A stretch of DNA of 53,980 nucleotides from Acidobacteriota bacterium (GTDB taxonomy: Bacteria; Acidobacteriota; Terriglobia; Bryobacterales; Bryobacteraceae). This document shows, one piece after another, positions 12,100 through 32,710 of this stretch. The stretch spans positions 1 through 53,980 of the forward strand of contig JAJYCN010000002.1 in assembly GCA_021778335.1 (NCBI GenBank), in the 5' to 3' direction. Position 1 is the first letter of the stretch. Every line of letters starts with the position of its first letter. The notes below the pieces were generated by a model. It was not told the origin of the DNA. It searched no databases and was given only the letters and a program-made list of their open reading frames with translations. A program made the translations under genes and the position numbers.

Positions 12100-13839
12100 A
12101 TGACCGGACTTGATTCCAATTCGCGAACGGTTGAGGGCGTCAGGCTTGATGCCGCGGATGCGTCCGCCGCGTCGAGCGCGGTGCTGCATTTCCTGCCGTC
12201 GCTGGCGGACATCGCGTTTTTGATCCCGCTGGTGTTTTTGTTCGCGAAGTTAGAGGGTGTCCGGACGCTGCTGGGAGACGGGGACACGGGTTGGCACGTG
12301 CGGACGGGGCAGTGGATTCTGGCGAATCACCAGGCGCCGCGGGTGGACATGTTCTCGTTCACGATGGCGGGCAAGCCTTGGTTTGCGTGGGAATGGCTGT
12401 GGGATGTGGCGTTCGCGGTGATTTACAGACACGGCGGGCTGGGCTCGGTGGTGTTGGTGAGCATGGTGGTGATCTGCCTGACGTTTGCGCTTCTGTACCG
12501 GCTATTGCTGCGCAAGTGCGGGAATCCGCTGGTGGCGATTGCGGTGACGTGCCTGGCCGCGGCGGGTACTACGATCCATTGGCTGGCGCGTCCGCATCTG
12601 TTTTCGTTCTTGTTCATGGTGGTTTTCCTGGATGTTTTGGACAGGGCATATGACGGGCGGAAGGTTCTGCTGTGGATTCTGCCGCCGCTGATGGTTCTGT
12701 GGACTAACGTCCATGGCGGGTTCTTCGTGGGGATCGTTCTCATTGGGGCGTATGCCGGAGGGGAACTGCTCCGGGCGGTGTTGACCGAGAACAAGTATGA
12801 ACGGCTGGCTTCGGCGCGGGCGTCGCTGCCGTATATTTATGCTTCGCTGGGGTGTCTGGCGGCGACGTTCATTAACCCGTACACGTATCATCTTCACGAG
12901 CACCTGGTGAAGTATTTGTCCGACCCATTCTTCCGCAACAATGTTAACGAGTACCTGCCGACTAATTTTGGGAATCCGGCCGCGTTCTACCTTGAGTTGG
13001 AACTTGCGCTTGGCTTGTTAGCGGCTGTCTGGTGGGGCGCCCGGCGGAAGTATGTCGAGGTGCTGACGATTCTGGGGTGGGCGCACTTGTCGTTGATTGT
13101 GGTTCGCAACGCGCCGCTTTACATGATCATCGGGGCGCCTATCGTCGTACTTCCGATTACGGAGTGGCTGCGGGCGTTGGGACGGGCTCCGGTGGCCGGA
13201 TGGATCCGGCGGCTGGTGAATGGGTTCGAGTCGACGGCCGAGGAAATGGCTCCGATGGAGCGGCCGTGGCGGACGCACCTCGTGCCGGCGATGGTGGTTG
13301 TGCTGCTGGCCCTGGCGATTCAGTCGGCTCCGGCCGACAATAAGTTCCTGCATGCCCGGTACGATCCAAAGAAGTATCCGGAGGCGGCGTTATCTTACCT
13401 GTCTCAGCCGGGGCTTCGGATCTTCACTCACGACGAGTGGGGCGACTATCTGGTTTACAATCTTTCTCCCAAAGGCGTGAAGGATTTCGTGGACGGCCGG
13501 ATGGATATGTACGGGACTAAGTTCTGCCAAGCTTACGTCGATGTGTTGAACGTCGGATACAAGTGGCAGGCGACTTTGGATAAGTACGGCGTCAACACGA
13601 TTCTGATGCCGGTGGATGCGCCTTTGACGGGCGCCCTGAAAGAATCTTCGCGGTGGCGCGTGGTTTACGACGACACGCGGGCCATCATCTTCCGGCGCGT
13701 GGAGACTGGCGCCGGGAGCGCGGGCAAAGTTTTCACCAGCGGTAGCGGTGAAAGGGGACGTGATCTTAGGGTCACGGCTTCCTCAAACGTGCATCCCGAG
13801 GATCACGTATCTCAGACAGAAGGAGCAAGACTGAAATGA
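12100..13839 (+). CDS. GT-C-like polytopic membrane protein coupled to Flp pilin
   Basis: The product has 579 residues and about ten or more hydrophobic segments. After the first segment comes GDGDTGWHVRTGQWILANH, an acidic loop of the kind seen in the first extracytoplasmic loop of GT-C (polyprenol-phosphate-sugar-dependent) glycosyltransferases. WFAWEWLWDV and NVHGGFFVG follow. A soluble C-terminal part (from about residue 410) includes IFTHDEWGDYLVYN and FVDGRMDMYG. It sits inside the Tad operon, 4 nt after tadG, and its stop overlaps the first pilin start (ATGA, 13836-13839). The 3' end of the gene also carries the pilin leader motif. Sugar transfer to pilin or TadG is a reasonable inference from context; it is not shown. 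Confidence 0.6.
   Translation: MTGLDSNSRTVEGVRLDAADASAASSAVLHFLPSLADIAFLIPLVFLFAKLEGVRTLLGDGDTGWHVRTGQWILANHQAPRVDMFSFTMAGKPWFAWEWLWDVAFAVIYRHGGLGSVVLVSMVVICLTFALLYRLLLRKCGNPLVAIAVTCLAAAGTTIHWLARPHLFSFLFMVVFLDVLDRAYDGRKVLLWILPPLMVLWTNVHGGFFVGIVLIGAYAGGELLRAVLTENKYERLASARASLPYIYASLGCLAATFINPYTYHLHEHLVKYLSDPFFRNNVNEYLPTNFGNPAAFYLELELALGLLAAVWWGARRKYVEVLTILGWAHLSLIVVRNAPLYMIIGAPIVVLPITEWLRALGRAPVAGWIRRLVNGFESTAEEMAPMERPWRTHLVPAMVVVLLALAIQSAPADNKFLHARYDPKKYPEAALSYLSQPGLRIFTHDEWGDYLVYNLSPKGVKDFVDGRMDMYGTKFCQAYVDVLNVGYKWQATLDKYGVNTILMPVDAPLTGALKESSRWRVVYDDTRAIIFRRVETGAGSAGKVFTSGSGERGRDLRVTASSNVHPEDHVSQTEGARLK
13810..13825 (+). promoter_or_regulatory. Pilin leader motif 1 with Shine-Dalgarno
   Basis: TCTCAGACAGAAGGAG lies just before the first Flp pilin ATG and is inside the coding end of the GT-C-like gene. 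An almost identical 16-mer (one mismatch) precedes the second pilin at 14262-14277. AGGAG is the ribosome binding site. The conservation upstream of it suggests shared translational control or simple descent by duplication. Confidence 0.6.
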
Positions 13840-14033
13840 AAGCATTGTTTACCCGTTTTCTGCGTGAGGAGCAAGGCCAGGATTTGATCGAATACACCCT
13901 GCTGCTCGCGTTTGTTTGCCTGGCGGCCGCGGCGCTTTTCATCGGTGTCGGTGGACAAATCAGCACGATTTGGAGCGACACGAATGTCATCGCGAAAAAC
14001 GCGGCGACGGTTGCCACCTCGGCTGCTTCCTAG
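13836..14033 (+). CDS. Flp/Fap-type pilin 1
   Basis: Class III (Flp) pilin of 65 residues. The prepilin site is EEQGQDLIEYTLLLAFVCL: cleavage after Gly leaves QDLIEY, with Glu at +5 and the following Tyr that mark Flp pilins, then one hydrophobic helix. The mature pilin of about 50 residues ends in an Ala/Thr/Ser tail. The start overlaps the stop of the GT-C-like gene, and the leader carries AGGAG. Flp subunits polymerise into the Tad pilus used for surface attachment. A strong hairpin lies just downstream, so this copy may be expressed separately from the rest. Confidence 0.9.
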   Translation: MKALFTRFLREEQGQDLIEYTLLLAFVCLAAAALFIGVGGQISTIWSDTNVIAKNAATVATSAAS

Positions 14034-14060
14034 GAAGCCGTAGTGGTCCCGTGAAAAAGT

Positions 14061-14093
14061 ATCCGGGCGAGGCCCCGAAGGTGTCGCCCGGAT
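14061..14093 (+). terminator. Strong hairpin after pilin 1
   Basis: ATCCGGGCGA at 14061-14070 pairs perfectly with TCGCCCGGAT at 14084-14093 across a 13-nt loop; AAAAAG precedes the left arm. The sequence after the stem is TAACGG, not a T tract. It may therefore be a partial terminator or an mRNA-stabilising stem that raises pilin 1 abundance relative to downstream genes, which is a common arrangement in secretion operons. Confidence 0.55.
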
Positions 14094-14261
14094 TAACGGT
14101 GTCAGAAGAGGGGCCGAACGGCGTCGGCGGCGGGGTGGTTTGGCTGGGCGCGGAATCGTGCGCACGGGGGCCGGGAATGGGTTCAATTGTGAGCGCGGCG
14201 AGACATGCACGATTTTCCAAGTTCAGATTCTACGTAAGTGGTGCGCTCCGCCGGTTGCGTG

Positions 14262-14277
14262 TCTCAGACAAAAGGAG
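14262..14277 (+). promoter_or_regulatory. Pilin leader motif 2 with Shine-Dalgarno
   Basis: TCTCAGACAAAAGGAG repeats the leader of pilin 1 with one change and sits before the second pilin ATG at 14288. A second purine run, GGGACGAAGGA, is closer to the start and could also bind the ribosome. Confidence 0.6.
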
Positions 14278-14287
14278 GGACGAAGGA

Positions 14288-14482
14288 ATGAAACGTCTGG
14301 TTGCAAGTGTTTTTTGTGAGGAACAAGGTCAGGACCTGATTGAGTACACGCTGCTGCTCGCGTTTGTCTGCCTCGTGGCCGCCGTGCTGTTTATTGGCGT
14401 CGGCCAGCAGGTCTCGACCATCTGGAAGTATACCAACCAGGCGCTGTCTTCGGCGGCGGCTGCAGCCGCGACCGGCAGTTAG
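14288..14482 (+). CDS. Flp/Fap-type pilin 2
   Basis: Class III pilin of 64 residues, very close to pilin 1: EEQGQDLIEYTLLLAFVCL is identical across the processing site and start of the helix. The tail differs, with KYTNQALSSAAAAAATG. An upstream open frame exists, but the ATG at 14288 is favoured by the AAGGA just before it and by the pilin-sized product. It appears to be a tandem duplicate of pilin 1 that kept its leader. The 254-bp space between the two copies holds only the hairpin and no further gene that I can see. Confidence 0.88.
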   Translation: MKRLVASVFCEEQGQDLIEYTLLLAFVCLVAAVLFIGVGQQVSTIWKYTNQALSSAAAAAATGS

Positions 14483-14523
14483 TGAGCTATTGGCGAGCCG
14501 TTCCGGTTACGGAGATCGGATAT

Positions 14524-14700
14524 ATGAGAGGATTTTGGAAATGCGACGACGGACAGGATCTTATAGAATACTCTCTGCTGCTCGCGTTCATTTGTCTTGT
14601 GGGCGCGGCGTTTTACATGGGCATGAGCGGCTCGACGTCGACGATTTGGGGTATTGTGAACAGCCGCCTAGCGGCGGCGAATCAGACTGCTGTGAGTTAA
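14524..14700 (+). CDS. Flp/Fap-type pilin 3 (divergent)
   Basis: Class III pilin of 58 residues. The processing site is KCDDGQDLIEYSLLLAFICL, again Gly followed by QDLIEY, but the leader peptide is very short (MRGFWKCDDG). The helix ends with AAFYMGMSGSTSTIW. The ATG at 14524 has GGAG 9 nt upstream and gives a pilin-sized product; an in-frame GTG at 14482 would overlap the stop of pilin 2. It lacks the TCTCAGACA leader of the other two copies. The divergence suggests a minor or specialised subunit rather than a recent copy. Confidence 0.83.
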   Translation: MRGFWKCDDGQDLIEYSLLLAFICLVGAAFYMGMSGSTSTIWGIVNSRLAAANQTAVS

Positions 14701-18379: not shown

Positions 18380-19741
18380 TTGTCCGCCAATTCATCGCTT
18401 GTCCGGCAGGATGCGGGTTGGGTTAACCGGCTGTTCAGCGACCAGACGGTGAGCCCCGAATATCAGGAGCTGAAGTTTGCGATTCACCGGAAGCTGCTGG
18501 ACCGGATAAACCTCGAGATTCTGTCGAGTGTTTCAAACGATCGAGTCCGGACCGAGGTGCGGACGGCGATTGCGAAGCTGGTGGAAGAAGAGAAGACGCC
18601 GCTGAGCCTGGTGGAGAAGGACCGGATCATCGCCGAGGTGTTCGACGAGGTGTTCGGGCTGGGGCCTCTGGAGCCGCTTTTGGCGGATTCGACGATTTCC
18701 GACATTCTGGTTACTACGCCGAAGCTGGTCCACATTGAACGGGCCGGGAAGCTGTATAAGACGCCGGTTCAGTTCAAGGACAACGCTCACCTGATGCGGA
18801 TTATCGAGAAGGTGGTGGCGCGGGTGGGGCGGCGCGTGGACGAATCTTCGCCGCTGGTGGACGCGCGGCTACCGGACGGATCGCGCGTGAATGCGGCGAT
18901 TCCGCCGATCGCGGTAGATGGGCCGCTTCTATCGATCCGGCGGTTTGGGCGAAATCCGATCAAGGCGGAAGACCTGGTGCGGACGCTGACATTGACCGAC
19001 AGCATGATGACGCTGCTGCGGGGATGCGTGCAGGCGCGGCTGAACCTTTTGATCTCCGGCGGGACGGGCGCCGGAAAGACGACGCTGTTGAACGTCCTGT
19101 CGGGTTTTATCTCCGAGGACGAGCGGATCGTGACGATTGAGGATGCGGCCGAACTGCGGCTGAGCCAGGAGCACGTGGCGCGGATGGAGACGCGCCCGCC
19201 GAACATTGAGGGCACCGGCGCGATTCGAATCCGGAATCTTGTCATCAACGCGCTCCGCATGCGGCCGGACCGGATCATCGTGGGCGAGGTCCGCGGCGAG
19301 GAAGCGCTGGACATGCTGCAGGCGATGAACACGGGCCACGACGGCTCGCTGACGACGATTCACGCGAACTCGGCGCGCGACGCGCTGGGACGTTTGGAAG
19401 TGATGGTGGGAATGGCGAACGCGAACATGAGTCTGCGGTCGATGCGGCAGCAGATCAGTTCGGCGATCGACGTGGTGGTGCAGATCGCGCGGTTCAGCGA
19501 CGGAAGCCGGCGGGTGACGAGCGTCTCGGAATGCGTGGGCATGGAGGGTGACCTGATCACCATGCAGGACGTGTACGTGTTCGAGAAGACGGGCCTCACG
19601 GAGTCGGGAAGGGTGACGGGGCGATTCCGGGCGACAGGGATCCGGCCGAAGTTTTACGAGCAGCTTCGCGTGGCGGGAATCCAGTTGTCGCAATCGATGT
19701 TTCAGACCGTGGTTGAAATTGGAAAGCCGGTGCAGCAATGA
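18380..19741 (+). CDS. cpaF: Tad secretion ATPase CpaF (TadA)
   Basis: Type II/IV secretion-family hexameric ATPase of 453 residues. Motifs in order: an N-terminal regulatory region ([20 protein letters not shown]), Walker [13 protein letters not shown] (near residue 230), the Asp box [11 protein letters not shown], Walker [19 protein letters not shown] and the His box [11 protein letters not shown]. It powers pilus extension and retraction from the cytoplasmic side with TadB and TadC. The start is TTG at 18380, supported by AAAGGAG 8 nt upstream; no better ATG lies near the conserved N-terminus. The stop overlaps the tadB ATG by 4 nt. Confidence 0.93.
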
Positions 19742-20709
19742 ATCCATGGTTGATCGGCTTGATCTTTCTGCCGCTGTTTGCGGCGATGCTGGTCGCGATC
19801 AGCCTGGGCGGGCGGTTTCTGGAAGAGCAGAGCCGGCGCCGGGTGAAGGGGATTTTGCGGGCGGCTTCCGGCGAGGAAGCGGCGCCGGAAGAAACGTCAA
19901 TCCTTCTCGATCGGCACGAGGAAGACGCGCTCACGGCTTTGCTGGCCGAGTCGAAGCTGCCGGGCCGCATGGCGAGTTTCATTCAGCAAGCGGGATTGGA
20001 CTGGTCCGTGACGCGGCTTGCCACCATGACGTTCGTCGCCTTTCTCCTTGGGTTAATTTTGGGGTGGAAGCTCCAGCCGCTGGGATTCCAATCCTTGAGC
20101 GCGCTCGGTTTTGGGCTGTTGCTCGGCTGTCTTCCGTATGTTTTCGTCCGGCACAAGCGCAACAAGCGCTTGGGCGAGTTCGAGGAGCAGTTTCCGGACG
20201 CGCTGGACTTCCTGGCGCGGTCGATGCGCGCGGGCCATGCTTTCACGATCAGCCTGGACATGATGGGGCAGGAGTCGCCGGATCCGGTGGGGCAGGAGTT
20301 CCGCACTTTGTTTAACGAGCAGAACCTGGGTGCTCCGATCGAGACGGCGCTCGAGAATTTCGGACGACGGGTACCGCTGCTGGACGTACGGCTTTTCATT
20401 TCGACGGTTCTGCTGCAGCGGCAGACCGGCGGAAATCTGAGCGAGGTTTTGGTCCGGCTGGGATACATTATCCGGGAGCGGTTCCGGCTGAAGGGGCATG
20501 TGCGAGCGGTGAGCGCTCACGGGCGCCTGACTGCATTGATTTTGAGTATCTTGCCGATCGCTCTCGTATTGGGGCTGATGCTGGTGGCTCCTGGCTATCT
20601 GAAGGCGCTGGCGAACGATCCGGACGGGAAGTGGTTGATCGCGGGTTCGATCGTAGGACAGATCCTGGCGTATTTCATTATGCGCAGGATCATCGATATC
20701 AAGATCTAG
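19738..20709 (+). CDS. tadB: Tad inner-membrane platform protein TadB
   Basis: The product has 323 residues, with a type II secretion F domain. One N-terminal membrane helix ([20 protein letters not shown]), a helical pair near residues 95-135, the GspF-type cytoplasmic bundle ([38 protein letters not shown]) and two C-terminal helices are visible. It pairs with TadC to form the membrane platform driven by CpaF. Translationally coupled to cpaF (ATGA). Between its stop and tadC lie 142 bp with a hairpin/heptad element, an unusual interruption of an otherwise compact operon. Confidence 0.92.
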
Positions 20710-20851: not shown

Positions 20852-21796
20852 ATGGCTGTCTTAGTTACCGGCGCTCTATTTTTCTTTCTGTTGCTGACGA
20901 TTTCGTACGTCGGCTATCGCTATTATGCGCGGCCGGGTCGCGTGTACGAGCAACTGGGTGGGCCGGCCTCGGCGACGATGCCGCAAGTGGACCAGCGCGA
21001 CGAAGGCGAGCCTGGGCTGGTTGTGTCGGTGCTCGAGCAAATCGGGGAACGCATACCGGTGGATCCGGCGGATGTTTCGGGGATCCGAAAGGATCTGATC
21101 GCGGCGGGTTACCGGACGGAGAGGGCGGTTGCGATTTACACGGGCATCCGTGTCGTGGCTTGTGCCGGGCTGGGCATAGCTGCGTTTTTGCTCCGGCACT
21201 ACCTGACCTCGAATTCGGTGCTTTCGATCGTGATTCCGATCGCCGCCGCGGTGGCCGGTTACATGGGGCCAAGTTACGTATTGGAGAGTATGATTGGCAG
21301 CCGCCAGCAGCGAATCCGCTGGGGACTTCCGGACGCGCTCGATTTGCTTGTAGTATCGGTGGAGGCCGGGCTCGGGCTCGACCAGGCGATTCAGTATGTT
21401 TCCAAAGAATTGATTACGACGCACCCCGATGTGTCGGAGGAACTGGAATTAGTGCATCTCGAGATCCGGGGCGGACAGCGCCGCGTGGACGCGCTGCGCA
21501 ATCTGGCGGACAGGACGGGGGAGCCGGAGCTTCGCAAGCTGGTGGCGGTGTTGGTACAGACGGACCGGTTTGGAACGAGCATCGCGGACTCGCTACGGAC
21601 ACATTCCGATTTCATGCGGACGCGCCGCCGCCAGGAGGCGGAGGAACGCGCCAACAAGGTGGGCGTGAAGCTGGTGTTCCCGATCTTCTTTCTAATCCTC
21701 CCGTCGATGCTTGTGGTGGCGGCCGGTGAAGGTATTTTGCAGATCTTCAAACAGTTGATACCGATGATGAAGGGCTTTCACGGCCCCGGGATGTGA
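20852..21796 (+). CDS. tadC: Tad inner-membrane platform protein TadC
   Basis: The product has 314 residues, with a type II secretion F domain. It has an N-terminal helix, a central pair (AYTGIRVV-type region near 100-145), the GspF bundle (WGLPDALDLLVVSVEAGLGL, FGTSIADSLRTHSDFMR, RRQEAEERANKVGVKLVFP) and a final hydrophobic stretch, FPIFFLILPSMLVVAAGEGI. It partners TadB in the pilus platform. AAGGA lies 8 nt before the ATG at 20852. Last recognised core gene of the Tad operon. Confidence 0.92.
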   Translation: MAVLVTGALFFFLLLTISYVGYRYYARPGRVYEQLGGPASATMPQVDQRDEGEPGLVVSVLEQIGERIPVDPADVSGIRKDLIAAGYRTERAVAIYTGIRVVACAGLGIAAFLLRHYLTSNSVLSIVIPIAAAVAGYMGPSYVLESMIGSRQQRIRWGLPDALDLLVVSVEAGLGLDQAIQYVSKELITTHPDVSEELELVHLEIRGGQRRVDALRNLADRTGEPELRKLVAVLVQTDRFGTSIADSLRTHSDFMRTRRRQEAEERANKVGVKLVFPIFFLILPSMLVVAAGEGILQIFKQLIPMMKGFHGPGM

Positions 21797-21874: not shown

Positions 21875-21973
21875 ATGAACAAAAACACGCTCGAAGCAAT
21901 TTTGTGGATCGCGGCCGGTCTCATTCTTGTGCTGTATTTGATGCGGCGGAGCAAGCGGAAGAGGAGCCGGTAA
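21875..21973 (+). CDS. 32-residue single-TM microprotein downstream of tadC
   Basis: A short gene of 33 codons encodes MNKNTLEAILWIAAGLILVL, then YLMRRSKRKRSR. It is one hydrophobic helix flanked by a neutral N-terminus and a very basic C-terminus, which fits a single-pass membrane microprotein with the basic end in the cytoplasm. AAAAGGAG lies about 11 nt upstream, a strong ribosome site. It starts 78 nt after tadC and precedes the terpenoid-cyclase-like gene by about 150 nt. Its length and topology could suit a small Tad or membrane-complex subunit. Function unknown; no homologue recognised by eye. Confidence 0.6.
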   Translation: MNKNTLEAILWIAAGLILVLYLMRRSKRKRSR

Positions 21974-22124
21974 CGGCACTTCACGAGGCTTTGGAGGAGT
22001 AACGGAAGCATACGGCGCTGGAGGTTTTGAAAGACATCCCGGGAGGGTACTATACGTACGCTCATATCGGGGAGCCTCGTAATTCTGGGCGGTCGTGCCT
22101 TCGTTTTGAGTTGAGAGGTTTGTC

Positions 22125-22991
22125 ATCATCGACGCGAGCCAACTGATCTCCATTCAAAACAAGGACGGGGGATGGCCTTACGCGGCCGGAGCGGCATCCT
22201 GGACGGAGCCCACGTGCTACGCCCTGCACGCTCTTACGGCGTTGGGCATGGAAGATACCGCGGCGGCCCAAAGCGGCTCGCGGTGGCTGACACAGTGCGA
22301 GAGAGGCGACGGGGGCATGGCGGCGCGGCCTTCGGTTGCCGAGAGCACCTGGGTGACGGCGCTGACGCTGTTTTTGCCGGCGCCGCTGGCAGCGAGTTTA
22401 CACCGGAGCGAGACGATCCGGTGGGTACGCGCGCAGACCGGGCAGGAGTCCGGCTGGGTATATCGCCTTCGCCTTCTTTTGATGGGGACACGGTCTGAGG
22501 CTTCCCTACAATTCGATGGCTGGCCATGGTATCCAGGGGAAGCGGCGTGGACGACGCCGACGGCAATGTCGGTTCTTGCTCTCGAACATTTACAATCGCA
22601 TGGTAACGAACCGGACTTAGCCGGCCGCATCGAGCAGGGGAAAGATTTTCTGCTGGCGCGGCGGTGCCGGGATGGCGGATGGAATCATGGGTCCACGCGG
22701 GCGCTCGGCTACGACGGCGGTTCGTACCCGGAGACGACCGGGCAGGCGCTGCTGGCGCTGCACGATGTGGGCGATGCAAAGCTTGCCGCTTCGATGGCGC
22801 GGGCGGAGAAGCATTTGGCCGGATGCGAGTCCTTGCAGGCGGCTTATTGGCTGGTGCTGGGCTTGCGCGCCCACAGGAGGCCGGCCGAGGTCCCGGCGGG
22901 CCTGAAACGGCGAGGGAGCACGATGGAGACGGCGTTGGGGATTCTGGCGGACGCGGCGGTTGAAGGACGCCACTTCCTTACGATTTCGTGA
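22125..22991 (+). CDS. Terpenoid-cyclase/prenyltransferase-like alpha/alpha toroid protein, start codon unclear
   Basis: The frame resembles squalene-hopene cyclase/prenyltransferase repeat proteins, with QW-like repeats: SIQNKDGGWPYAAGAASW, QCERGDGGMAARPSVAES and LARRCRDGGWNHGST, plus YPETTGQALLALHD. Such toroids bind isoprenoids or proteins; the DxDD motif of true cyclases is not seen. At about 288 residues it is much shorter than a full cyclase. The first repeat lies upstream of any ATG, GTG or TTG in frame. The in-frame stop is at 22107, and candidate starts are ATC at 22125 or 22128 (after GAGAGG at 22113-22118), CTG at 22143, or the late TTG at 22242, which would remove the first repeat. 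It overlaps the DUF362 start by 1 nt (TGATG). Confidence 0.6.
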   Translation: MIDASQLISIQNKDGGWPYAAGAASWTEPTCYALHALTALGMEDTAAAQSGSRWLTQCERGDGGMAARPSVAESTWVTALTLFLPAPLAASLHRSETIRWVRAQTGQESGWVYRLRLLLMGTRSEASLQFDGWPWYPGEAAWTTPTAMSVLALEHLQSHGNEPDLAGRIEQGKDFLLARRCRDGGWNHGSTRALGYDGGSYPETTGQALLALHDVGDAKLAASMARAEKHLAGCESLQAAYWLVLGLRAHRRPAEVPAGLKRRGSTMETALGILADAAVEGRHFLTIS

Positions 22992-23995
22992 TGAGGCAGC
23001 GACCAGATCAAGAGCGCAGTCCGGCTGGGAGGAGACTGCAAGACGAAGGTCCGACGCGGCGGGGATGGCTGGCGGTGGCCGGCGCGTCCGCGACGCTGGC
23101 GGCGTGCCAGGGAAGGGTGAGGCCATGGGCGCCGGTTTCCATTCACAGAGCGGCGAGCTATTCGGACAACCTTTACGACCTGTTCCGGCGGATATTGAGC
23201 GAGCATCGCGTGGACGCGCGGGGCAAGCGGGTGGTGCTGAAGCCGAACATGGTGGAGTTCGACGAGCGGACGGTGATCAACACGAACCCCGCGGTCGTGC
23301 ACGCGGCGCTGGAGGCATTCCGGGCGGCCGGCGCGGCGGATGTCCGGATTGCGGAGGGGCCTGGCCACCGGCGGCTGACACTGGACTTGGCCGATGCCGC
23401 GGGATACTTCTCCACGATCCCGGATTTCGAGCGGTTGTTCACGGACCTGAATCTCGACGATGTGACGAGAGTTCCGCTGGTTCATCCTCACTCGCGGGCG
23501 GGTGAGCTTTATATGCCCAACACGATTCTAGGGTGCGACCTGCTGGTTTCGCTGCCGAAGATGAAGACGCACCACTGGGCGGGGGCCACACTGAGCATGA
23601 AAAACCTGTTCGGGACGGTGCCGGGCGGCGTTTACGGGTGGCCGAAGAACGTGCTGCACTGGGCCGGGATCAATGAGTGCATAGCGGACCTTCATTCGCT
23701 GTTTCCGCGTGCGTTCGCCCTCGTCGACGGGATTGTCGGCATGGAAGGGAACGGGCCGATTCAGGGGATGCCGAAGCAGGTGGGTGTGATCGTGGCGGGG
23801 CGGGACCCGGTGGCGGTGGATGCGACTTGCTGCCGGATCATGGGGTTGGATCCGGCCAAGATCGGCTATTTGTTGCTCACGGCCGGCACAGATGCGTTAG
23901 CCGAAGACCTTGTGCCTCAGATCGGCGAGCCTTGGCGGTCTGTCAGAGAGCATTTTGACCTTCTGCCATCTCTGCGGTATCTGTCCTTACGCTAA
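22991..23995 (+). CDS. DUF362 domain protein, Tat-type signal with lipobox-like site
   Basis: The product has 334 residues. The N-terminus carries PTRRGWLAVAGASATLAAC, a twin-arginine motif followed by a hydrophobic stretch ending in Cys, so an exported lipoprotein is possible. DUF362 features include KRVVLKPNMVEFD, INTNPAVVHAALEAFRAAGA, DLLVSLPKMKTHHWAGATLS, MKNLFGTVPGG and DPVAVDATCCRIMG. DUF362 biochemistry is not established. No 4Fe-4S motif is seen. It overlaps the upstream cyclase-like gene by 1 nt and the downstream GT-C gene by 1 nt (TAATG), so the three are translationally linked. A 170-bp piece of this gene is duplicated at 25569-25740. Confidence 0.8.
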   Translation: MRQRPDQERSPAGRRLQDEGPTRRGWLAVAGASATLAACQGRVRPWAPVSIHRAASYSDNLYDLFRRILSEHRVDARGKRVVLKPNMVEFDERTVINTNPAVVHAALEAFRAAGAADVRIAEGPGHRRLTLDLADAAGYFSTIPDFERLFTDLNLDDVTRVPLVHPHSRAGELYMPNTILGCDLLVSLPKMKTHHWAGATLSMKNLFGTVPGGVYGWPKNVLHWAGINECIADLHSLFPRAFALVDGIVGMEGNGPIQGMPKQVGVIVAGRDPVAVDATCCRIMGLDPAKIGYLLLTAGTDALAEDLVPQIGEPWRSVREHFDLLPSLRYLSLR

Positions 23996-25803
23996 TGGAT
24001 GCCGAGAGGGTGACGCCCGAACAAAAGAAGCGCTCGCCGGGCGCCGCGGAGCACCTTTTATTCATTCCGCCCCTGGTCGTTGCGGTGATCCTCTGCTGGG
24101 TCGTCCCGATGTGGACCAGCTTGGGCGTCGACGAATGCGGGAATTGGTGGGTTGTAAAAGACGGTTTCCGGGTGATGTTGGAGAGATCCCGGTTTTGGTT
24201 GGGTGGGCAGTCGGTATTGTTCAATTCCCTTGTGCTGGCGGCCATGCGCCTGGGAGGAGACAGCGACGCCGTGCTGCGGATTCCGGCCGTCGTTTCATCC
24301 ATTGGTGCGCTTTATTTCTTGTATCGTCTTGGAACTCGAATCGCGGACCGCTCCACGGCCCTCATTTCCTGCCTGGTCTTCGTGACCATGTCCGAGGTTG
24401 TTCTTGTCGCATCATCGATGCGTCCGTACTCGTTGGGCCTCTGTCTCCTGATCGGGGCCGTAGGTAGTTTAGTTTTATGGTGCGACAGCGGCAGAAAGAG
24501 GTATGGAATCCTTTATGTGGTCTTAGCGTCTCTTACACTTTACGCGACGTTCATCTATGGGACGATGTTCTTGATTCATGCGCTATACGTGTACCGGCGC
24601 CGGAAGGTCGGGACATCCGCTGTGGCGCCTGGTGGTCTTGCGCTTGCGTGGTGCGGCTGTGGTGTCCTGATCAGCCCTCTTGTTCCTCGAATACTTTCGG
24701 CGTACTCCGGGAGTGCGGGTGAGGTCTACCTGCCGGCGCCGGATATCGACGCCTTTCTTGCAAGTATTCTTCCGTACCTGTTTGCGGGCGCCGTGTGCGT
24801 GGCGCTTTTCGTGACCCAGGTTTTACGCCACGACGAGGACCTGTCGACGGTTGAAAATTCATTCGATTGGTGGTTTGTCGCCGTCTGGGCTATCGTGCCG
24901 CCGACGTTGTTGCTTGGGCTCTCGTTGTTCAGCGAATTGCGGCTGTTCGCCGGGAGATATTACATTTCGAATGCTCCCGCGGTCGCGCTTGCCGCGGCTA
25001 TCGTTTTACGCCGTGTCAGCTCGCCGTCATTCCAGCGCGGAGTGGCGATTGCGCTTGTTGTGGTAGCCGTTGTCCAATATGGAGCGAGCGAAAGGTTTCT
25101 CCGTGGCGAGCCAGATTTTCGCGGGGCCGTCGCAGCGGCTCGAAGTCTTGCCGACGGCCCTGGAACTGTAGTGCTGACGGCTACCGATTTTGTCGAGGGC
25201 GATCATGTGCCTGACGTGGAGAATCCGAGACTCACAGAGGCGCTCGGTTCCTGCCTGCTGCGATACCGCATGCCCGGACGGATCGTCCTGCTGCCGGCGG
25301 TCGGTGATGCCGCCGCGTTCGCCTATTTGGATCAACAACTCGAGACGCTGGTTCGGGGCGAGCGGAAGTTCTTAGCAGTGGGTACGTACGGAACTGCGAT
25401 GTATCAATTGTGGCTGGACGGCCGATGCCGCCAGTGGGGATTTTCAAGTAGGGCTGTGAGGCAGTCCGGGGGAGTATTCGTGTACATCTTCGAACGCAAA
25501 AGCGTAACTGGCGAGTGGAGCCATCCCGAATTGGCGCCGCGCAACCGGCCGAGCGTGAGCTTGCGCTGCGCCACGCCGAGCATGGAGGGCCGGTTCGGGA
25601 CGGTGGCGGGCGGCGTGTACGGATGGCCGAAGGACGTGCTTCACTGGGCCGGGATCGATGAGTGTATTGCCGACCTTCATTCGCTGTCTCCGCGTGCGTT
25701 TACGATGGTCGACGGGATTGTGGGCATGGAAGGGGATGGGACAGCTCGACTTTACTTCCAAGACGGTGGGTTACTTCGGCAATGTTGTGGCCTGCGAATA
25801 TGA
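23995..25803 (+). CDS. GT-C family glycosyltransferase with chimeric C-terminus
   Basis: The product has 602 residues. About ten membrane segments and an acidic first exterior loop (LGVDECGNWWVVKDG) are typical of GT-C/GT39-like enzymes that use polyprenol-phosphate sugars on the outer face. The natural protein seems to end near FVYIFERK (about residue 500). After about residue 525 the frame continues into a duplicated piece of DUF362 (FGTVAGGVYGWPKDVLHWAG) and stops at 25803, so the last 75 residues are a recombination product. The start overlaps the DUF362 stop. Codon use is less G+C-rich than the flanking Tad genes, hinting at separate ancestry. Whether the fused tail affects function is unknown. 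Confidence 0.7.
   Translation: MDAERVTPEQKKRSPGAAEHLLFIPPLVVAVILCWVVPMWTSLGVDECGNWWVVKDGFRVMLERSRFWLGGQSVLFNSLVLAAMRLGGDSDAVLRIPAVVSSIGALYFLYRLGTRIADRSTALISCLVFVTMSEVVLVASSMRPYSLGLCLLIGAVGSLVLWCDSGRKRYGILYVVLASLTLYATFIYGTMFLIHALYVYRRRKVGTSAVAPGGLALAWCGCGVLISPLVPRILSAYSGSAGEVYLPAPDIDAFLASILPYLFAGAVCVALFVTQVLRHDEDLSTVENSFDWWFVAVWAIVPPTLLLGLSLFSELRLFAGRYYISNAPAVALAAAIVLRRVSSPSFQRGVAIALVVVAVVQYGASERFLRGEPDFRGAVAAARSLADGPGTVVLTATDFVEGDHVPDVENPRLTEALGSCLLRYRMPGRIVLLPAVGDAAAFAYLDQQLETLVRGERKFLAVGTYGTAMYQLWLDGRCRQWGFSSRAVRQSGGVFVYIFERKSVTGEWSHPELAPRNRPSVSLRCATPSMEGRFGTVAGGVYGWPKDVLHWAGIDECIADLHSLSPRAFTMVDGIVGMEGDGTARLYFQDGGLLRQCCGLRI
25569..25740 (+). repeat. Duplicated internal fragment of the DUF362 gene
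   Basis: The segment aligns without gaps to 23584-23755 at a constant offset of 1985 bp. By hand I count 23 mismatches over 163 positions (about 86% identity). It keeps the DUF362 reading frame (GIDECIADLHSLSPRAF, MVDGIVGMEGDG). It is joined to the end of the GT-C gene on the left and to unrelated sequence on the right, which briefly reads GQLDFTSKTVGYFGNVVACE in another frame. This is a relic of a recombined second DUF362 copy. Confidence 0.85.
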
Positions 25804-25848: not shown

Positions 25849-27363
25849 ATGATTCAGACTAAGTTGGAAGGCGGCACCACTGATCGAGCCGTGGGCCGCT
25901 CCTCAACAGCGCCAGCCAAGCATGAGGGGATTCTCTTGGTATGCGCTGCGCTCGCGCTGGCGATCCCGTGTGTCTGGCAGCGGCACATCGAGGCGATGGA
26001 TTTGCCGAGTCATGTTTACAATGCATGGCTGGCGTCGCTGATCGCGCACGGCGAAATCAGCGGAGTCAAGCTTGTGCACCCGCTGACGAATGTGCTTGGG
26101 GATTGGATTCTCAGTGCGGGGCTCAGCGCTTTTGGGCCTGCGTGGGCGGCGCGGATTGTATGCATTATCGCCGTTGAAGCATTCTTTTGGGGCATGTTCG
26201 CACTGGCGTCGGCGGTGAGCGGAAGGAGGGTGTGGGCGATTGTTCCGTTCCTTGCCATGCTGGCCTACAGCGTGGTGTTCTACTTTGGATTCTTGACCTT
26301 CTACCTTGCCACGGCGTGCTCGGTATGGATGTTGGCGGTTTCATGGCGATTCAGTAGATCCCGGCTTTGGATCGCATGTGCTCTCGCGGGCCTGGGCTTT
26401 CTGGCGAGTCCGCTGCCCGTTGCGTGGGCGATTTGCATGATCGGCTACATCTACCTGGCGCGGTCGATTTCAAGGTGGGCAAACGTGGTTCTTCTCGTAA
26501 CTGGGGCGGGCTGCCTGTTTGTGGTTCGTTCGGCCGTAATGAAGCTGTTTCTCTGCCATCCATCTCAGGCGCATGCGGACCTTTTCAGCTTCCTGAGAAT
26601 TATCGGAGCCCTCGAGTTCGATCCTTTTCAGATGCAGTATTTATTCCTCGCGGCGGGTGTGATGCTTCTAGGTACAGCCGTCTTTCTTGTGAGGGTGACA
26701 GACCCGACGGAGAGATTCGGTCCGCTCGCGCAGCTCTGGTTGTTGAACGCTTTTGCTTTCGTGGCACTGCCGTCAAGGATCCGGTTCCCGGTGTACGGTG
26801 CGGATCTTTGGTTTATTCAGGAGAGGATTGCCTTTTTTCTCGTAATTATCTTCTTTGCCTGGGCGGCGAAGGCGATGCGGGGGAAGGGATTCACGGCGCT
26901 TTGCAGCCTGGTTGCCCTGGTGTACTTTGTGTTGCTTTTCGTGGATCAGCGAGCGCTGAACCGGGCGGACGAAGAGATAGGTTTCCTGGTGGCACAGCTC
27001 CCTCCCCGGCAGAAGGTTGTTTCGTCAATTCATGATGAGGGGGCGCGGGTGAACGGGTTGGAGCACATTCTGGATTGGGCGTGCATCGGGCGCTGCTTCG
27101 ACTATGCAAATTATGAACCGTCGTCGCTTCAGTTCCGGGTTCAAACGACGGGACCCAATGAGGTAGCGGCGTGGGTGAATGGCACGGCGGTGGAGATCGA
27201 AGCAAAGGAGCATATTGTCACGGCGGAGGAGGCACCCTTATATTCGGTATGCCCGTCCAGCGTGCCGGGGCGGCGGTTTGCGTTGCGGAAGTTGGAGGCG
27301 GGGGAGAAGACATGCAGCTTTTCGCTGCCGGTTACGCCGGCGCTTGGCCGGCTGTTCCGGTGA
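25849..27363 (+). CDS. GT-C-like polytopic membrane protein, paralogue A
   Basis: The product has 504 residues. After the first membrane segment comes QRHIEAMDLPSHVYNAWLAS, an acidic/His exterior loop in the position of GT-C catalytic residues, then about ten further hydrophobic segments. A soluble C-terminal part of roughly 120 residues begins LFVDQRALNRADEEIGFL and contains cysteines in DWACIGRCFDYANYEP, LYSVCPSSVPGRRF and EAGEKTCSFSL, probably exported and disulfide-bonded. It begins 45 nt after the chimeric GT-C gene and 24 nt before paralogue B. A glycosyltransferase role is inferred from topology and the loop only; family not firmly identified. Confidence 0.65.
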   Translation: MIQTKLEGGTTDRAVGRSSTAPAKHEGILLVCAALALAIPCVWQRHIEAMDLPSHVYNAWLASLIAHGEISGVKLVHPLTNVLGDWILSAGLSAFGPAWAARIVCIIAVEAFFWGMFALASAVSGRRVWAIVPFLAMLAYSVVFYFGFLTFYLATACSVWMLAVSWRFSRSRLWIACALAGLGFLASPLPVAWAICMIGYIYLARSISRWANVVLLVTGAGCLFVVRSAVMKLFLCHPSQAHADLFSFLRIIGALEFDPFQMQYLFLAAGVMLLGTAVFLVRVTDPTERFGPLAQLWLLNAFAFVALPSRIRFPVYGADLWFIQERIAFFLVIIFFAWAAKAMRGKGFTALCSLVALVYFVLLFVDQRALNRADEEIGFLVAQLPPRQKVVSSIHDEGARVNGLEHILDWACIGRCFDYANYEPSSLQFRVQTTGPNEVAAWVNGTAVEIEAKEHIVTAEEAPLYSVCPSSVPGRRFALRKLEAGEKTCSFSLPVTPALGRLFR

Positions 27364-27387
27364 TGACAGAGTGTCCGGCATTTGCTG

Positions 27388-28902
27388 ATGAAGACTCTTA
27401 CTGACGCTGAGCAGATGGATTCCACACCCGATTTGTGCCCTGGATGGCTCCAGCGGCATGAGAGGGTTGCGACGGCTTGTGCGACCGGCGCCCTGGTGGT
27501 TCCGTGTGTCTGGCAACCTCACATTGAGGCAATGGATTTGCCGAGTCACGTTTACAATGCGTGGCTGGCGTCTCTGATCGCGCACGGTCAAGTGTCGGGT
27601 CTGGAACTTGTACATCCGTTTACGAATGTTCTCGCCGACTGGATTTTGAGCGTGGGGCTGCATGCGTTTGGGGCGGCTTGGGCGGCGCGGATCCTCTGCA
27701 TTCTTGCGGTCGAGACATTCTTTTGGGGGGTGTTCCGGCTCGCGTCCGTCGTGAGCGGCAAGAGTGCATGGCCTTTGGCACCCTGCATTGCGATGCTGTC
27801 TTACGGGTTCACTTTCTATCTTGGGTTCGTGAATTTCTATCTTGCGACGGCGTGCTCTGTGTGGATCCTGGCTGTTTTGTGGCGGTTTAGCTTCCGGGGG
27901 TTGCTGGCGGCGTTTGCGCTTGGAGTGGTGGGGAGCATGGCGAGTCTGCTTCCGGTTGCATGGGCGGTTTTGGCGGTGGGATACATGTACGCCGCTCGAG
28001 TTATCCCGGTCCGGGTGAGGCCGGTTTTACTCGTGGGCGGTGCGGGTTGTTTAGTTGTGGCCGACTTGGTTTTCGCTCGGATGTTTGAGTGTTATTGGCA
28101 TCTGGACCAAATCGCAAGTTCGCTTGGCTTCTTGAGACTTACGGGCCTCGGGCAGTTTGCGCCATTCGGTCCCAAGTATTTGTTCGTTTCGCTTGCAATT
28201 TTGATTCTTTGGGGCAAGTTGTTTCTGGAACGGGTGGAACGCGGCGGGGTGCTCAGGGACCCGCTGTTTCATCTCTGGCTGCTCGCGGTGGTTGCGGTTG
28301 CCGTACTGCCTTCCGGTCTCGGATTTCCTATGTACGCGGCGAATCTGACGTTCATTCCCGATAGAGTTTCGCAGTTCGTGGCGATTTTGTTCTGCGCTTG
28401 GCTGGGCAGCGCGACTCTCGGAAGGGGCACTACGAGTTGGCTGGCGGCCGTGGCCGCGGTGTATTTCGTGTTCTTATATGTGGATGCGCGTGCGCTAAAT
28501 AAGGCGGACGCGGAGATAACGGCCCTGGTGTCCCATCTGCCGCCGGCGCAGAGGGTGGTGTCTTCCGTTAGGGACAGTGGCGCGGTGTTGACTAGCCTGG
28601 AACATGTTCTAGATTGGGCGTGTATTGGCCGCTGCTTCGATTACGGGAACTACGAGCCTGCCTCGCACGCGTTTCGCGTTTGGGCAGCCGGCGTGAATGG
28701 CGTTGTGACACCCTCGCTCGAAACGGCGGAAGAGATTGAATACCGGGGCCATGCGGTAACGGCGGCTGAGGCGCCGTTATATTCGGTTTGCCCGTCCAGC
28801 GTTCCGGGGCAACGGTTTGCGTTGCGGAGGCTGGAGGCGGGGGAGAAGACGTGCAGCTTTGAGCTGGACATCACGCCGGCGCTGGTGAATTTGTTCTGGT
28901 GA
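27388..28902 (+). CDS. GT-C-like polytopic membrane protein, paralogue B
   Basis: The product has about 504 residues and is collinear with paralogue A: QPHIEAMDLPSHVYNAWLAS differs from A by one residue in 20, and the C-terminal cysteine motifs DWACIGRCFDYGNYEP and LYSVCPSSVPGQRF recur. Divergence is greater in the central membrane segments. The ATG at 27388 is assumed; TTG at 27382 and ATG at 27415 are alternatives. Tandem duplication followed by divergence is clear. Preserved loop and cysteine motifs imply that both copies are under selection. A third, truncated copy lies at 31292-31771. Confidence 0.65.
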   Translation: MKTLTDAEQMDSTPDLCPGWLQRHERVATACATGALVVPCVWQPHIEAMDLPSHVYNAWLASLIAHGQVSGLELVHPFTNVLADWILSVGLHAFGAAWAARILCILAVETFFWGVFRLASVVSGKSAWPLAPCIAMLSYGFTFYLGFVNFYLATACSVWILAVLWRFSFRGLLAAFALGVVGSMASLLPVAWAVLAVGYMYAARVIPVRVRPVLLVGGAGCLVVADLVFARMFECYWHLDQIASSLGFLRLTGLGQFAPFGPKYLFVSLAILILWGKLFLERVERGGVLRDPLFHLWLLAVVAVAVLPSGLGFPMYAANLTFIPDRVSQFVAILFCAWLGSATLGRGTTSWLAAVAAVYFVFLYVDARALNKADAEITALVSHLPPAQRVVSSVRDSGAVLTSLEHVLDWACIGRCFDYGNYEPASHAFRVWAAGVNGVVTPSLETAEEIEYRGHAVTAAEAPLYSVCPSSVPGQRFALRRLEAGEKTCSFELDITPALVNLFW

Positions 28903-29299: not shown

Positions 29300-30880
29300 A
29301 TGGCGACAGTACCTCCGGAATCGTGCCTTCACTGTGAAAACGAACCTGAAGACCGGGTTCCGTTTGCCCCGTTGCTAGAGTCCGACCGGGCGGTCGGGAC
29401 GCTTGTAGGGTTAGTTCTGGCGTGGCAGTTTGTGGACTCTCTTCTGACGGCGAGCCGGAAGGCGTTTTGGTATGACGAGTTAATTACATTGCATGTCTCT
29501 GCATTGCAGCCCTCTTCCCGCGTTTTGCAAGCGCTAAGGGCTGGCGCCGATTCGATGCCGCCGGGGTACGAGCTTATCGAAAGAGTGGCCCGGGTGCTTC
29601 CATTGGACGTGCATGCGGCACTAAGACTTCCGTCTATCCTCGGTTACTTGTTCAGCCTGCTCGCCGTGTATTTATTTGCCAAGAAGCGGCTGGCGGCGTC
29701 CGCCGGGTTGGCGGCGGTGATTCTGTTGGTTTTGTCCCCGTTTCGGAACTACGCGGTTGAGGCGCGGTCCTATGCCCTGGAGGTGGGGTTATTCGCAGTG
29801 TCCGCTGTGGTATGGCAAAGAGTCGGCACAAGGCGTCTGATGGTCCCCTTGCTTGGGATTCTGCTAGCCATGGCCGTCTCTTGTCATTATTACGCGGCGG
29901 TTGCGCTCCTATCGTTTGGATTGGGTGAACTAACATGGACGCTTGCTTCCCGGCGTATCCGTTGGGGAGTGTGGGCCGCATTTGTGTTTGCGACAGCACC
30001 CTTTTTCGCGGCCCTTCCAATCCTCTTACGGCTCAAGGATATTGTTGGACGGAACTTCTGGGCGAAGCCCAGCGTAGACCTTACGATCTCGACTTATTCG
30101 GAATATCTTGGATTCGATGGGGCTTGGATCGTCGCGATGCTTGTTTTTGGCGGCTTCGTATTTTCAAGCATGGTGTTTCGTGCGTCGCGGACGACCGCCG
30201 AGGATTTATCCTCGCGCACTCTGCCCGCACCGGAGCTTGTTTTTTTGGCTGGGCTGGTCCTTTACCCCCCATTGTTAATCCTGATTACTAGTATTCTTCA
30301 TGGCGGTTACACGGCGCGCTACGGCTGGCCGGCTATCCTTGGGCTGGTTCTGGGCTTGGTTTACCTGGGTTGGGCTCTTTGGTCATGGGCTAACTTCACT
30401 CGCTTTGTGGTGGCGTTGCTGATCGCACTTTGCCTGCAATTCGGGGTGGACATGGCATCGGCCGTCGATCCGTCGAATTCCAGCTTGGCTGAAGTAAGAG
30501 AGCGCTGGATGCGCCTCGCGCACGTCGCGGATGGGCATCCGGACATCCCCGTCGTCGTCGGCGACGCCCTTGACTACCTGCCGAGCACCCAGTATGCTCC
30601 GCTGGGGTTGCGCGGTCGTCTTGTGGAGGTGGTTGATCCAGATCTGGAGGTCCGCGTTTGCGGTTCGGACTCGACCGATAGGGGTGGGGCTATCCTGGCA
30701 GGCTTCGCTCCCCTGCGGGTCGAAAATCGTGCACCGTTCTTGGCCGCTCATCGGGAGTTTATGTTGTATTCCTCACGAGGACCCTTCGATTGGATAACCC
30801 GGTACCTGATCGAAAAGGGCTCTCACCTGTCGCTGCTATGGCAAGACAGGAGCGGCTCGCTTTACCTTTGTGAAAGGTGA
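29300..30880 (+). CDS. GT-C/GT39-like glycosyltransferase
   Basis: The product has 526 residues and about ten membrane segments. The first exterior loop carries KAFWYDELITLHVSALQPSS; the Asp-Glu after Tyr is the usual catalytic acidic pair of ArnT/PMT-like GT-C enzymes. PPGYELIERVARVLPLDVHA and NYAVEARSYALEVGLFAVSA (the EARSY/ARxY region after the second large loop) are further family marks. An exterior C-terminal part of about 120 residues has few recognisable motifs. The N-terminus has CLHCENEPED before the first helix, unusual but too short for a metal site. It probably transfers a sugar from a polyprenol carrier at the outer face of the inner membrane. Acceptor unknown. Confidence 0.75.
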   Translation: MATVPPESCLHCENEPEDRVPFAPLLESDRAVGTLVGLVLAWQFVDSLLTASRKAFWYDELITLHVSALQPSSRVLQALRAGADSMPPGYELIERVARVLPLDVHAALRLPSILGYLFSLLAVYLFAKKRLAASAGLAAVILLVLSPFRNYAVEARSYALEVGLFAVSAVVWQRVGTRRLMVPLLGILLAMAVSCHYYAAVALLSFGLGELTWTLASRRIRWGVWAAFVFATAPFFAALPILLRLKDIVGRNFWAKPSVDLTISTYSEYLGFDGAWIVAMLVFGGFVFSSMVFRASRTTAEDLSSRTLPAPELVFLAGLVLYPPLLILITSILHGGYTARYGWPAILGLVLGLVYLGWALWSWANFTRFVVALLIALCLQFGVDMASAVDPSNSSLAEVRERWMRLAHVADGHPDIPVVVGDALDYLPSTQYAPLGLRGRLVEVVDPDLEVRVCGSDSTDRGGAILAGFAPLRVENRAPFLAAHREFMLYSSRGPFDWITRYLIEKGSHLSLLWQDRSGSLYLCER

Positions 30881-30988: not shown

Positions 30989-31291
30989 GTCACCGCGATC
31001 GACGGCAGTCACCGTGCTATTTTCTTTGGGCCGGAGGGTGACACGAGTTGGGTGCTCGGGCTGTTGCAGGGTGAGATTCCGGATTACCGGCACGGAGCGA
31101 TCGATGTTCGGGGCCGCGAAGGCATCCTGGGTCTGGTGGAGGATTTGAGGCCGGACTTAATCGTTCACACCGCGGCTCAGCCGTCGCATGACCGCGGCGC
31201 CGCCATCCCGTTTTTCGATTTCGAGGCAAACGAGATGGGAACTCTCCACCTGCTGGAGGCAGCGCGCCGCTCGTGCACGGAGTCGCCGTTC
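30989..31291 (+). pseudogene. Fragment of a CDP-paratose 2-epimerase-like (SDR) gene
   Basis: Translation after an in-frame stop at 30986 reads VTAIDGSHRAIFFGPEGDTS, later DLRPDLIVHTAAQPSHDRGA and GTLHLLEAARRSCTESPF. This matches residues about 30-130 of extended SDR epimerases of the CDP-paratose 2-epimerase (tyvelose pathway) type: the FFGP(E/Q)GDT and HTAAQPSHD motifs are distinctive. The NAD-binding GxxGxxG start is missing, and so is everything after the first third, where the frame runs into the end of an unrelated membrane-protein gene. It is therefore a relic of a nucleotide-sugar gene that supports a former or neighbouring deoxysugar glycan locus. Confidence 0.72.
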
Positions 31292-31771
31292 ATCGGTCAT
31301 ACCCGATTGTTGACTGCTATCACGGCGATCTACTTTCTGTTTCTATATGCCGATCAGCGGGCTTTGAATCGGGCGGACGCCGAGGTGGCGTCACTAGTTT
31401 CCGGGCTGCCGTATGGTCAGGGGGTTGTGGCTCCGATGCGGGACGGTGGCTCGAGGTTGAACGGACTGGAGCGGGTCTTGGATTGGAGTTGCATCGGGAG
31501 GTGCTTCGATTTCGCAAACGCTGAGCCGGCAGCGCTGGCGTTCCGGGTTCAGGCGACCGGGCCCAATCCGGTGGCCGTTGCCGACTTCTACAGGGCGCTG
31601 GCGATGAGTCACGACGAACAGACGGTTACCGCCGACGAGGCACCGTTATATTCGGTCTGCCCGTCTCGCGTGCCGGGGCGGCGGTTCGAGTTGCGGAAGG
31701 TGGAGGCGGGGGAGAAGACGTGCAGCTTCTCGTTGCCCGTGACGCCCTCGCTGGGGCATTTGTTCTGGTGA
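31292..31771 (+). pseudogene. 3' remnant of a third GT-C-like paralogue
   Basis: About 155 codons match the C-terminal domains of paralogues A and B: LYADQRALNRADAEVASL, DWSCIGRCFDFANAEP, LYSVCPSRVPGRRF and EAGEKTCSFSLPVTP. All membrane segments except the last are missing. The frame is continuous with the upstream epimerase fragment (a GTG at 31052 could start a 239-residue fusion), so a chimeric protein might be made, but both parts are truncated. It shows that at least three copies of this family once stood here and that the locus was cut by recombination or deletion. Confidence 0.72.
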
Positions 31772-32161: not shown

Positions 32162-32710
32162 CTAACGCGGCGCCCAGATGAGGGCGGAGCCAATGAAAAC
32201 GAGCGTACCGACGGCGATGAGGACGGCGTGGGGAAGGCGAAGGGCTTGATCGCTTCCGACATCGAGTTCCGGGTTGTCGCGATAAGGGGCACGTCCATAC
32301 CTTAGACTTTGCAACATGAGGGCCATATTCCAGAAGGTTTTGCGGATACGGTGTTTGGCGAAGGCGAGGACGAGGGCGGCGACGCCACCGAGGATGGCGG
32401 TGAGCAAGAGGATGCCGATCCAGTTCCAGGGTCCGGCGGCGGCGCCGATGGCGGCCATGAGTTTGACGTCGCCGGCGCCCATGCCGCGGAGGAGGTAGAG
32501 GACGAAGTAGATACCGAAGGCGAGGCCGAGGCCTTTGAGGGAATACCAGAGGCCGGCGAGTTCAAAGAGGAAGACGTTGAGGGCGAGTGCGAGGAGGAGG
32601 CCGGTGAGGGTGAGCCAGTTGGGGATGCGGTGGCTGCGGAGGTCGAAGACGGCGGCGGTTAGGACGAGCAGGGTGAGGAGGCAGCAGACGGCGAGGGGCG
32701 GGAGGGTCAT
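32162..32710 (-). CDS. Prepilin peptidase, A24 family (TadV/CpaA-like)
   Basis: Aspartic membrane peptidase of 182 residues. Both active-site regions are visible: AAVFDLRSHRIPNWLTLTG (first Asp) and RGMGAGDVKLMAAIG (GxGD with second Asp), within six hydrophobic segments. Enzymes of this size without the N-terminal methylase domain process Flp pilins and TadE/F pseudopilins. It is the only prepilin peptidase in the window and supplies the one Tad core function missing from the operon at 9.0-21.8 kb. Its ATG overlaps the stop of the J-domain gene (32707-32710), so translation is coupled. Confidence 0.88.
   Translation of the reverse strand: MTLPPLAVCCLLTLLVLTAAVFDLRSHRIPNWLTLTGLLLALALNVFLFELAGLWYSLKGLGLAFGIYFVLYLLRGMGAGDVKLMAAIGAAAGPWNWIGILLLTAILGGVAALVLAFAKHRIRKTFWNMALMLQSLRYGRAPYRDNPELDVGSDQALRLPHAVLIAVGTLVFIGSALIWAPR

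Follow-up and report, generated by a model that had tools for sequence, protein, structure and literature searches.

The stretch of DNA analyzed here (the window) spans 53,980 nucleotides of contig JAJYCN010000002.1, one contig of an Acidobacteriota metagenome-assembled genome (MAG; Bryobacterales/Bryobacteraceae-like, 5.5 Mb, 412 contigs). It carries a Tad pilus locus from ~9 kb onward, and this study concerns two coupled genes on the forward strand downstream of tadC. The first encodes a single alpha/alpha-toroid of the squalene-cyclase fold (positions 22125 to 22991), and the second encodes a DUF362 protein (22991 to 23995) with a twin-arginine translocation (Tat)/lipoprotein-type signal and a predicted LarA-superfamily fold. 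The full gene order 3' of tadC is microprotein, toroid, DUF362, a GT-C membrane protein of the PMT_2 family, two tandem genes of the GTb type, another GT-C-like gene, and a chimeric open reading frame (ORF), followed by a prepilin peptidase gene on the opposite strand. An earlier note on this DNA had read the microprotein, toroid, DUF362, and first GT-C genes as one Tad-adjacent set, and we confirmed the coordinates of the microprotein ORF (21875 to 21973) and of the gene overlaps, TGATG between toroid and DUF362 (22989-22993) and TAATG between DUF362 and GT-C (23993-23997).

The core unit consists of two genes, toroid and DUF362. Of 257 genomes of the order that we searched, 177 have the toroid. 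When 39 loci of 7 to 20 kb were inspected, all 39 had a same-strand DUF362 gene 3' of the toroid gene; the two overlapped by 4 nucleotides in about 12 of them, and a single locus had a gap of 2.5 kb, occupied by two membrane-protein genes. A genome-wide scan yielded 80 contigs, of which 74 had adjacent toroid and DUF362 genes; three of the remaining six loci stop at a contig edge. The pair is present in Acidobacteriota, Gemmatimonadota, Chloroflexota, Binatota, Cyanobacteriota/Melainabacteria, Myxococcota, and Verrucomicrobiota (at least seven phyla, a count that rests on MAG labels). One record labeled Arcobacter (Campylobacterota; L129) is probably misbinned, as the tree places its toroid together with L127, a Bryobacteraceae sequence. 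The interpretation in the earlier note thus survives in part. Toroid and DUF362 are co-conserved beside Tad across Acidobacteriota and GT-C partners recur, the genes occur together elsewhere, and the toroid did not turn out to be a known cytoplasmic enzyme, an outcome that the note had named as telling against its proposal. The three-gene set does not hold as a unit; the PMT_2 GT-C family of the window lies near the pair in only three genomes, adjoining it in two and 2.8 kb away in the third. We found no published description of this gene combination among open-licence papers, and the toroid-DUF362 module is real, conserved, and apparently undescribed.

We compared the surroundings of the pair with respect to Tad. 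Within the family, 36 of 61 close TadC homologues have a same-strand toroid gene less than 1.5 kb downstream, compared with 0 of 49 more distant ones; misses are possible because the list of toroids behind this comparison stops at weak matches and some contigs break off early. At one locus (L067) tadC is followed by microprotein, toroid, DUF362, and prepilin peptidase, and therefore the pair sits within the Tad locus. A prepilin peptidase homologue on the opposite strand 3' of the pair was seen in 10 other locus entries, some of which represent the same genome twice. The earlier note had considered the pair in the context of Tad only, but more than half of the loci from the genome-wide scan have no adjacent Tad gene. 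One possible reading is that the pair is a general unit of envelope or lipid enzymes without a functional tie to the pilus and that its adjacency to Tad is synteny inherited within one clade, consistent with the finding that the toroids that have Tad within 1 kb together make up a single Acidobacteriota clade (support 100/94, recovered in 100% of bootstrap trees). However, the pair recurs beside Tad genes in at least three lineages, with separate Tad neighborhoods in Myxococcota and in Obscuribacterales, where the pair and a Flp pilin gene are divergently oriented. The adjacency also outlasts strong sequence divergence, and one genome has two Tad loci that each hold their own pair. We regard inherited synteny without a functional tie as somewhat unlikely.

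The DUF362 protein matches PF04015 with 160.9 bits (gathering score 24). The Tat-like signal noted earlier is borne out by a twin-arginine motif and a LAAC lipobox at the N terminus, and at least 47 of 55 DUF362 proteins have a Tat-like signal. We searched the AlphaFold 2 model (predicted local distance difference test [pLDDT] score, 89.4) against the PDB with Foldseek. Of 18 matches with E ≤ 0.001, 17 were named LarA-superfamily entries and the other was an unnamed Thermotoga maritima protein (4nar); the best E value against LarA-superfamily structures was 1.4e-6, with TM-scores of 0.42-0.47. DUF362, which the earlier note had described as having no settled function, is more informative than that description allowed, with a LarA-type predicted fold. 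The LarA superfamily (DUF2088) comprises racemases and epimerases that use the nickel-pincer nucleotide (NPN). DUF362 and the LarA superfamily belong to the same clan, CL0471, and LarA1 uses the residues R75, H108, H174, K184, and H200 (PMC11770544). The DUF362 alignment shows no variation at H194, K204, and H223 and at least 90% conservation at H126, and these residues follow one another at distances of 68/10/19, compared with 66/10/16 in LarA1. Judged by this order and spacing, the NPN-lysine, the nickel-histidine, and the two catalytic histidines of LarA appear to have conserved counterparts in DUF362. Unlike LarA proteins, the window protein is short (about 330 residues), carries a Tat-like export signal, has no Lar_N Pfam match (PF04015 was the sole family at E ≤ 1), and gave no meaningful match when its profile was searched against PDB sequences.

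We also asked whether genomes with the pair encode the proteins LarB, LarC, and LarE. All three are present over cut-off in the window genome, in which LarA was not found (no Lar_N match at E ≤ 0.001). Of 19 distant toroid-bearing genomes, 14 have LarC, and one of the five negatives has LarB. In a set of 14 control genomes, DUF362 and LarC occurred together in four (Synechococcus elongatus, Thermotoga maritima, Haloferax volcanii, and Methanosarcina acetivorans), DUF362 alone in one, LarC alone in two, and LarA in only two, which hints weakly at possible NPN use by DUF362. At three loci in relatives, weak Lar_N matches corresponded to one distant DUF2088-like protein and two regions without a clear ORF of this type, and were not used as evidence for DUF362.

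The profile of the toroid matched squalene-hopene cyclase structures in the PDB (E 1.2e-24), and its AlphaFold 2 model (pLDDT, 94.5) matched drimenyl-diphosphate synthase, squalene-hopene cyclase, the beta subunit of farnesyltransferase, and C3d in Foldseek. With a dN/dS ratio (nonsynonymous to synonymous substitution rates) of 0.115 versus the sister species, the gene is under purifying selection; the ratio is 0.115 for DUF362 and 0.106 for tadC. There is no ATG, GTG, or TTG codon at the conserved N terminus in the window or in the sister species. The aligned start in both is ATC (position 22125 in the window), within ATC ATC GAC and with AGAGG 6 nucleotides upstream, and one homologue (L057) begins with VIDLSS, placing a GTG start one residue ahead of the common Ile-Asp. 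The simplest reading of these sequences is a probable AUC start. The residues that are invariant in the toroid include E27, W141, P144, and a GGWN motif.

The near-obligate pairing and the tight coupling of stop and start codons raise the question of whether the toroid serves the DUF362 protein itself, as a dedicated maturation chaperone that would hold the Tat-exported precursor until its cofactor is loaded and would have no lipid or sugar ligand. TorD and DmsD, all-helical proteins encoded beside Tat substrates, provide an analogy, and the lack of an evident signal peptide and of a cyclase motif in the toroid is in line with such a role. However, the window genome contains four further DUF362 proteins with Tat-like N termini and a single copy of this toroid, so the toroid is not a general requirement for Tat export of DUF362, and the conserved core rich in Trp and Glu residues suggests a ligand. 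We consider a pure chaperone unlikely. The toroid could alternatively be an active isoprenoid cyclase or prenyltransferase, since it shares the fold and the DGGW/QW-like repeats, already seen in the earlier note, with squalene-hopene cyclase and other class II terpene cyclases and with the farnesyltransferase beta subunit. But it is a single toroid, half as long as the two-domain squalene cyclases, with no clear signal peptide or membrane segment, and its invariant or at least 90% conserved columns contain no His for a zinc site like that of the protein prenyltransferase beta subunits (Asp/Cys/His ligands). An active terpene cyclase was rejected because none of 67 homologues has the DxDD acid motif, and catalysis of either kind is very improbable. 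The toroid looks like a binding or partner protein rather than a cyclase.

The gene that overlaps DUF362 in the window encodes a GT-C membrane protein (23995 to 25803, forward strand; PMT_2 29.9 bits, cut-off 26.1). As in PMT_2/ArnT-like GT-C glycosyltransferases, the PMT_2 domain scores over the cut-off, there are multiple transmembrane segments, and the first loop is acidic, as the earlier note had it, with an Asp-Glu pair after the first transmembrane segment. It differs from them in that its C terminus is fused to an in-frame remnant of a second DUF362 copy (25570 to 25740, forward strand; 85% nucleotide identity to 23585-23755), which lies within the last ~75 residues, reads MEG in place of the invariant MKN, and accounts for the unusual length and C terminus of the ORF. 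The next gene (25849 to 27363, forward strand) encodes a GT-C-like protein with multiple transmembrane segments and no Pfam match. It belongs to the GTb family, which is the more frequent of the downstream partners and whose genes follow DUF362 in about half of the Tad-linked loci and also occur 3' of tadC without the pair (L230). Its tandem paralogue (27382 to 28902, forward strand) was recognized by tandem direct repeats, and an in-frame start further upstream is possible. A further GT-C-like membrane protein (29300 to 30880, forward strand) scores 20.5 bits with PMT_2, below the cut-off, and an ORF at 31052-31771, in which an N-terminal part of a nucleotide-sugar epimerase/dehydratase is fused to a C-terminal GTb fragment, appears to be a recombination remnant. 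Decay of the whole locus into a gene set without coherent function, which the DUF362 remnant, the chimeric ORF, the tandem GTb copies, and the noncanonical toroid start might suggest, is most improbable given dN/dS values of 0.08-0.16 for tadB, tadC, microprotein, toroid, DUF362, and GTb, with decay seen in the remnants only.

In loci without Tad, a PMT/PMT_2 gene overlaps or abuts DUF362 in three cases (L109 and L116, over cut-off; L105, weak), and a gene of the PIG-V family follows the pair in Thermoflexus (L142). Apart from GT-C proteins, Pfam analysis of the neighbors of Tad-free pairs revealed no common pathway. The GT-C genes are variable partners of the pair.

The pilus locus of the window contains, like other Tad/Flp (type IVc) loci, genes for TadE, a TadG-like protein, three small Flp-type pilins, CpaB, the secretin, a CpaE-like AAA protein, TadA, TadB, TadC, and a prepilin peptidase, and TadA/B/C, secretin, CpaB, Flp pilin, and prepilin peptidase, the genes by which we define a Tad locus, are all present. 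The tadA/cpaF ATPase gene (18380 to 19741; T2SSE PF00437, 216 bits), tadB (19738 to 20709; T2SSF PF00482), and tadC (20852 to 21796; T2SSF PF00482, 67 bits) are on the forward strand, and their order upstream of the pair is conserved; the prepilin peptidase gene (32162 to 32710, reverse strand; PF01478, 75 bits) closes the locus. The operon also encodes a 579-residue protein with multiple transmembrane segments (12100-13839) and no Pfam or NCBIfam match, relatives of which lie 0.8 kb or less from the pair in L129, L133, L147, L149, and L038, other phyla among these. The three short Flp-like pilin ORFs are arranged in tandem at 13836-14700 and carry a EEQGQDLIEYTLLLAF-type motif. A second Tad-type locus of the same genome (G000, contig C412; L239) belongs to another TadC subfamily and has neither microprotein nor pair.

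What sets the locus of the window apart from other Tad loci is an extra conserved microprotein 3' of tadC, joined in a subset by the toroid-DUF362 pair. The microprotein (21875 to 21973, forward strand) has 32 residues, a single transmembrane segment, and an Arg-rich tail, and members of its family (31-32 residues) follow tadC in about 70 loci, several of which have two tandem copies. It has no Pfam match, and its NCBIfam match is sub-threshold only (GG_III-CTERM). Its dN/dS is 0.08 versus the sister species. A profile hidden Markov model matched in 51 of 51 Tad-linked loci, partly by construction as it was built from these, and in 0 of 69 loci without adjacent Tad. Independently of how the profile was built, it matched in 19 of 20 Tad loci of the same subfamily without the pair directly downstream; four loci of a second Tad subfamily gave no match. 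The earlier note had counted the microprotein within the enzyme set; it belongs to Tad and lies outside that set, because it is present after tadC in Tad loci without the pair too.

The recurrence of the pair in at least seven phyla, frequently beside membrane enzymes that transfer sugars, makes it probable that it completes or alters some component of the cell surface. Our preferred reading, put forward tentatively, is a module that modifies envelope or pilus glycans and includes a lipoprotein of LarA fold, so that the pair would have its site of action in the cell envelope and would work together with the Tad pilus in this lineage. GT-C enzymes would transfer sugars from polyprenyl phosphate to an acceptor outside the membrane, with the Tad pilin, a Tad-associated surface protein, or another envelope polymer as candidates. 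The DUF362 lipoprotein, perhaps exported in the folded state because it carries a cofactor, would then edit a hydroxy-acid or sugar-acid group of the glycosylated product by LarA-type chemistry. The toroid would be its cytoplasmic partner and bind either a polyprenyl intermediate or the DUF362 enzyme itself; that it handles an isoprenoid or a lipid-linked sugar is a guess. Several observations weigh against this glycan-modifying module. The GTb family and the family of the 12100-13839 protein are GT-C-like by topology only, and many loci have neither Tad nor a recognized GT-C gene adjoining the pair. Tad does not need the pair, because 25 of 61 close TadC homologues lack it directly downstream. 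The hhalign alignment of DUF362 with LarA agrees in register with the residue matching but is not significant (E 0.17). Finally, four of the 19 distant toroid genomes (two Gemmatimonadota, in one of which the contig ends before DUF362 could be seen, and two Thermoflexus) lack both LarB and LarC over cut-off. As pair-bearing genomes without LarB and LarC exist, NPN use by DUF362 is possible, although not universal. A more specific version, in which DUF362 is a second, non-LarA home for NPN and acts as an exported NPN lipoprotein that epimerizes a glycan of the envelope or pilus and has an inactive cyclase toroid for its dedicated partner, is doubtful.

Overall, our analysis defines a gene pair found across phyla and provides a hypothesis for DUF362 that derives from its predicted fold and can be tested. 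Tad pili gain a conserved microprotein as a further component, and a route opens to testing Tad-linked surface glycosylation. About 15% of analyzed genomes encode LarB/C/E without LarA, and an NPN-using protein yet to be identified has been predicted (PMC11796402). With its LarA-like predicted fold, its LarA-like conserved residues, and its presence in a genome that has larB/C/E and no detectable LarA, DUF362 is a concrete candidate for this protein. If true, an NPN-using DUF362 would help explain many of the genomes that make NPN without LarA.

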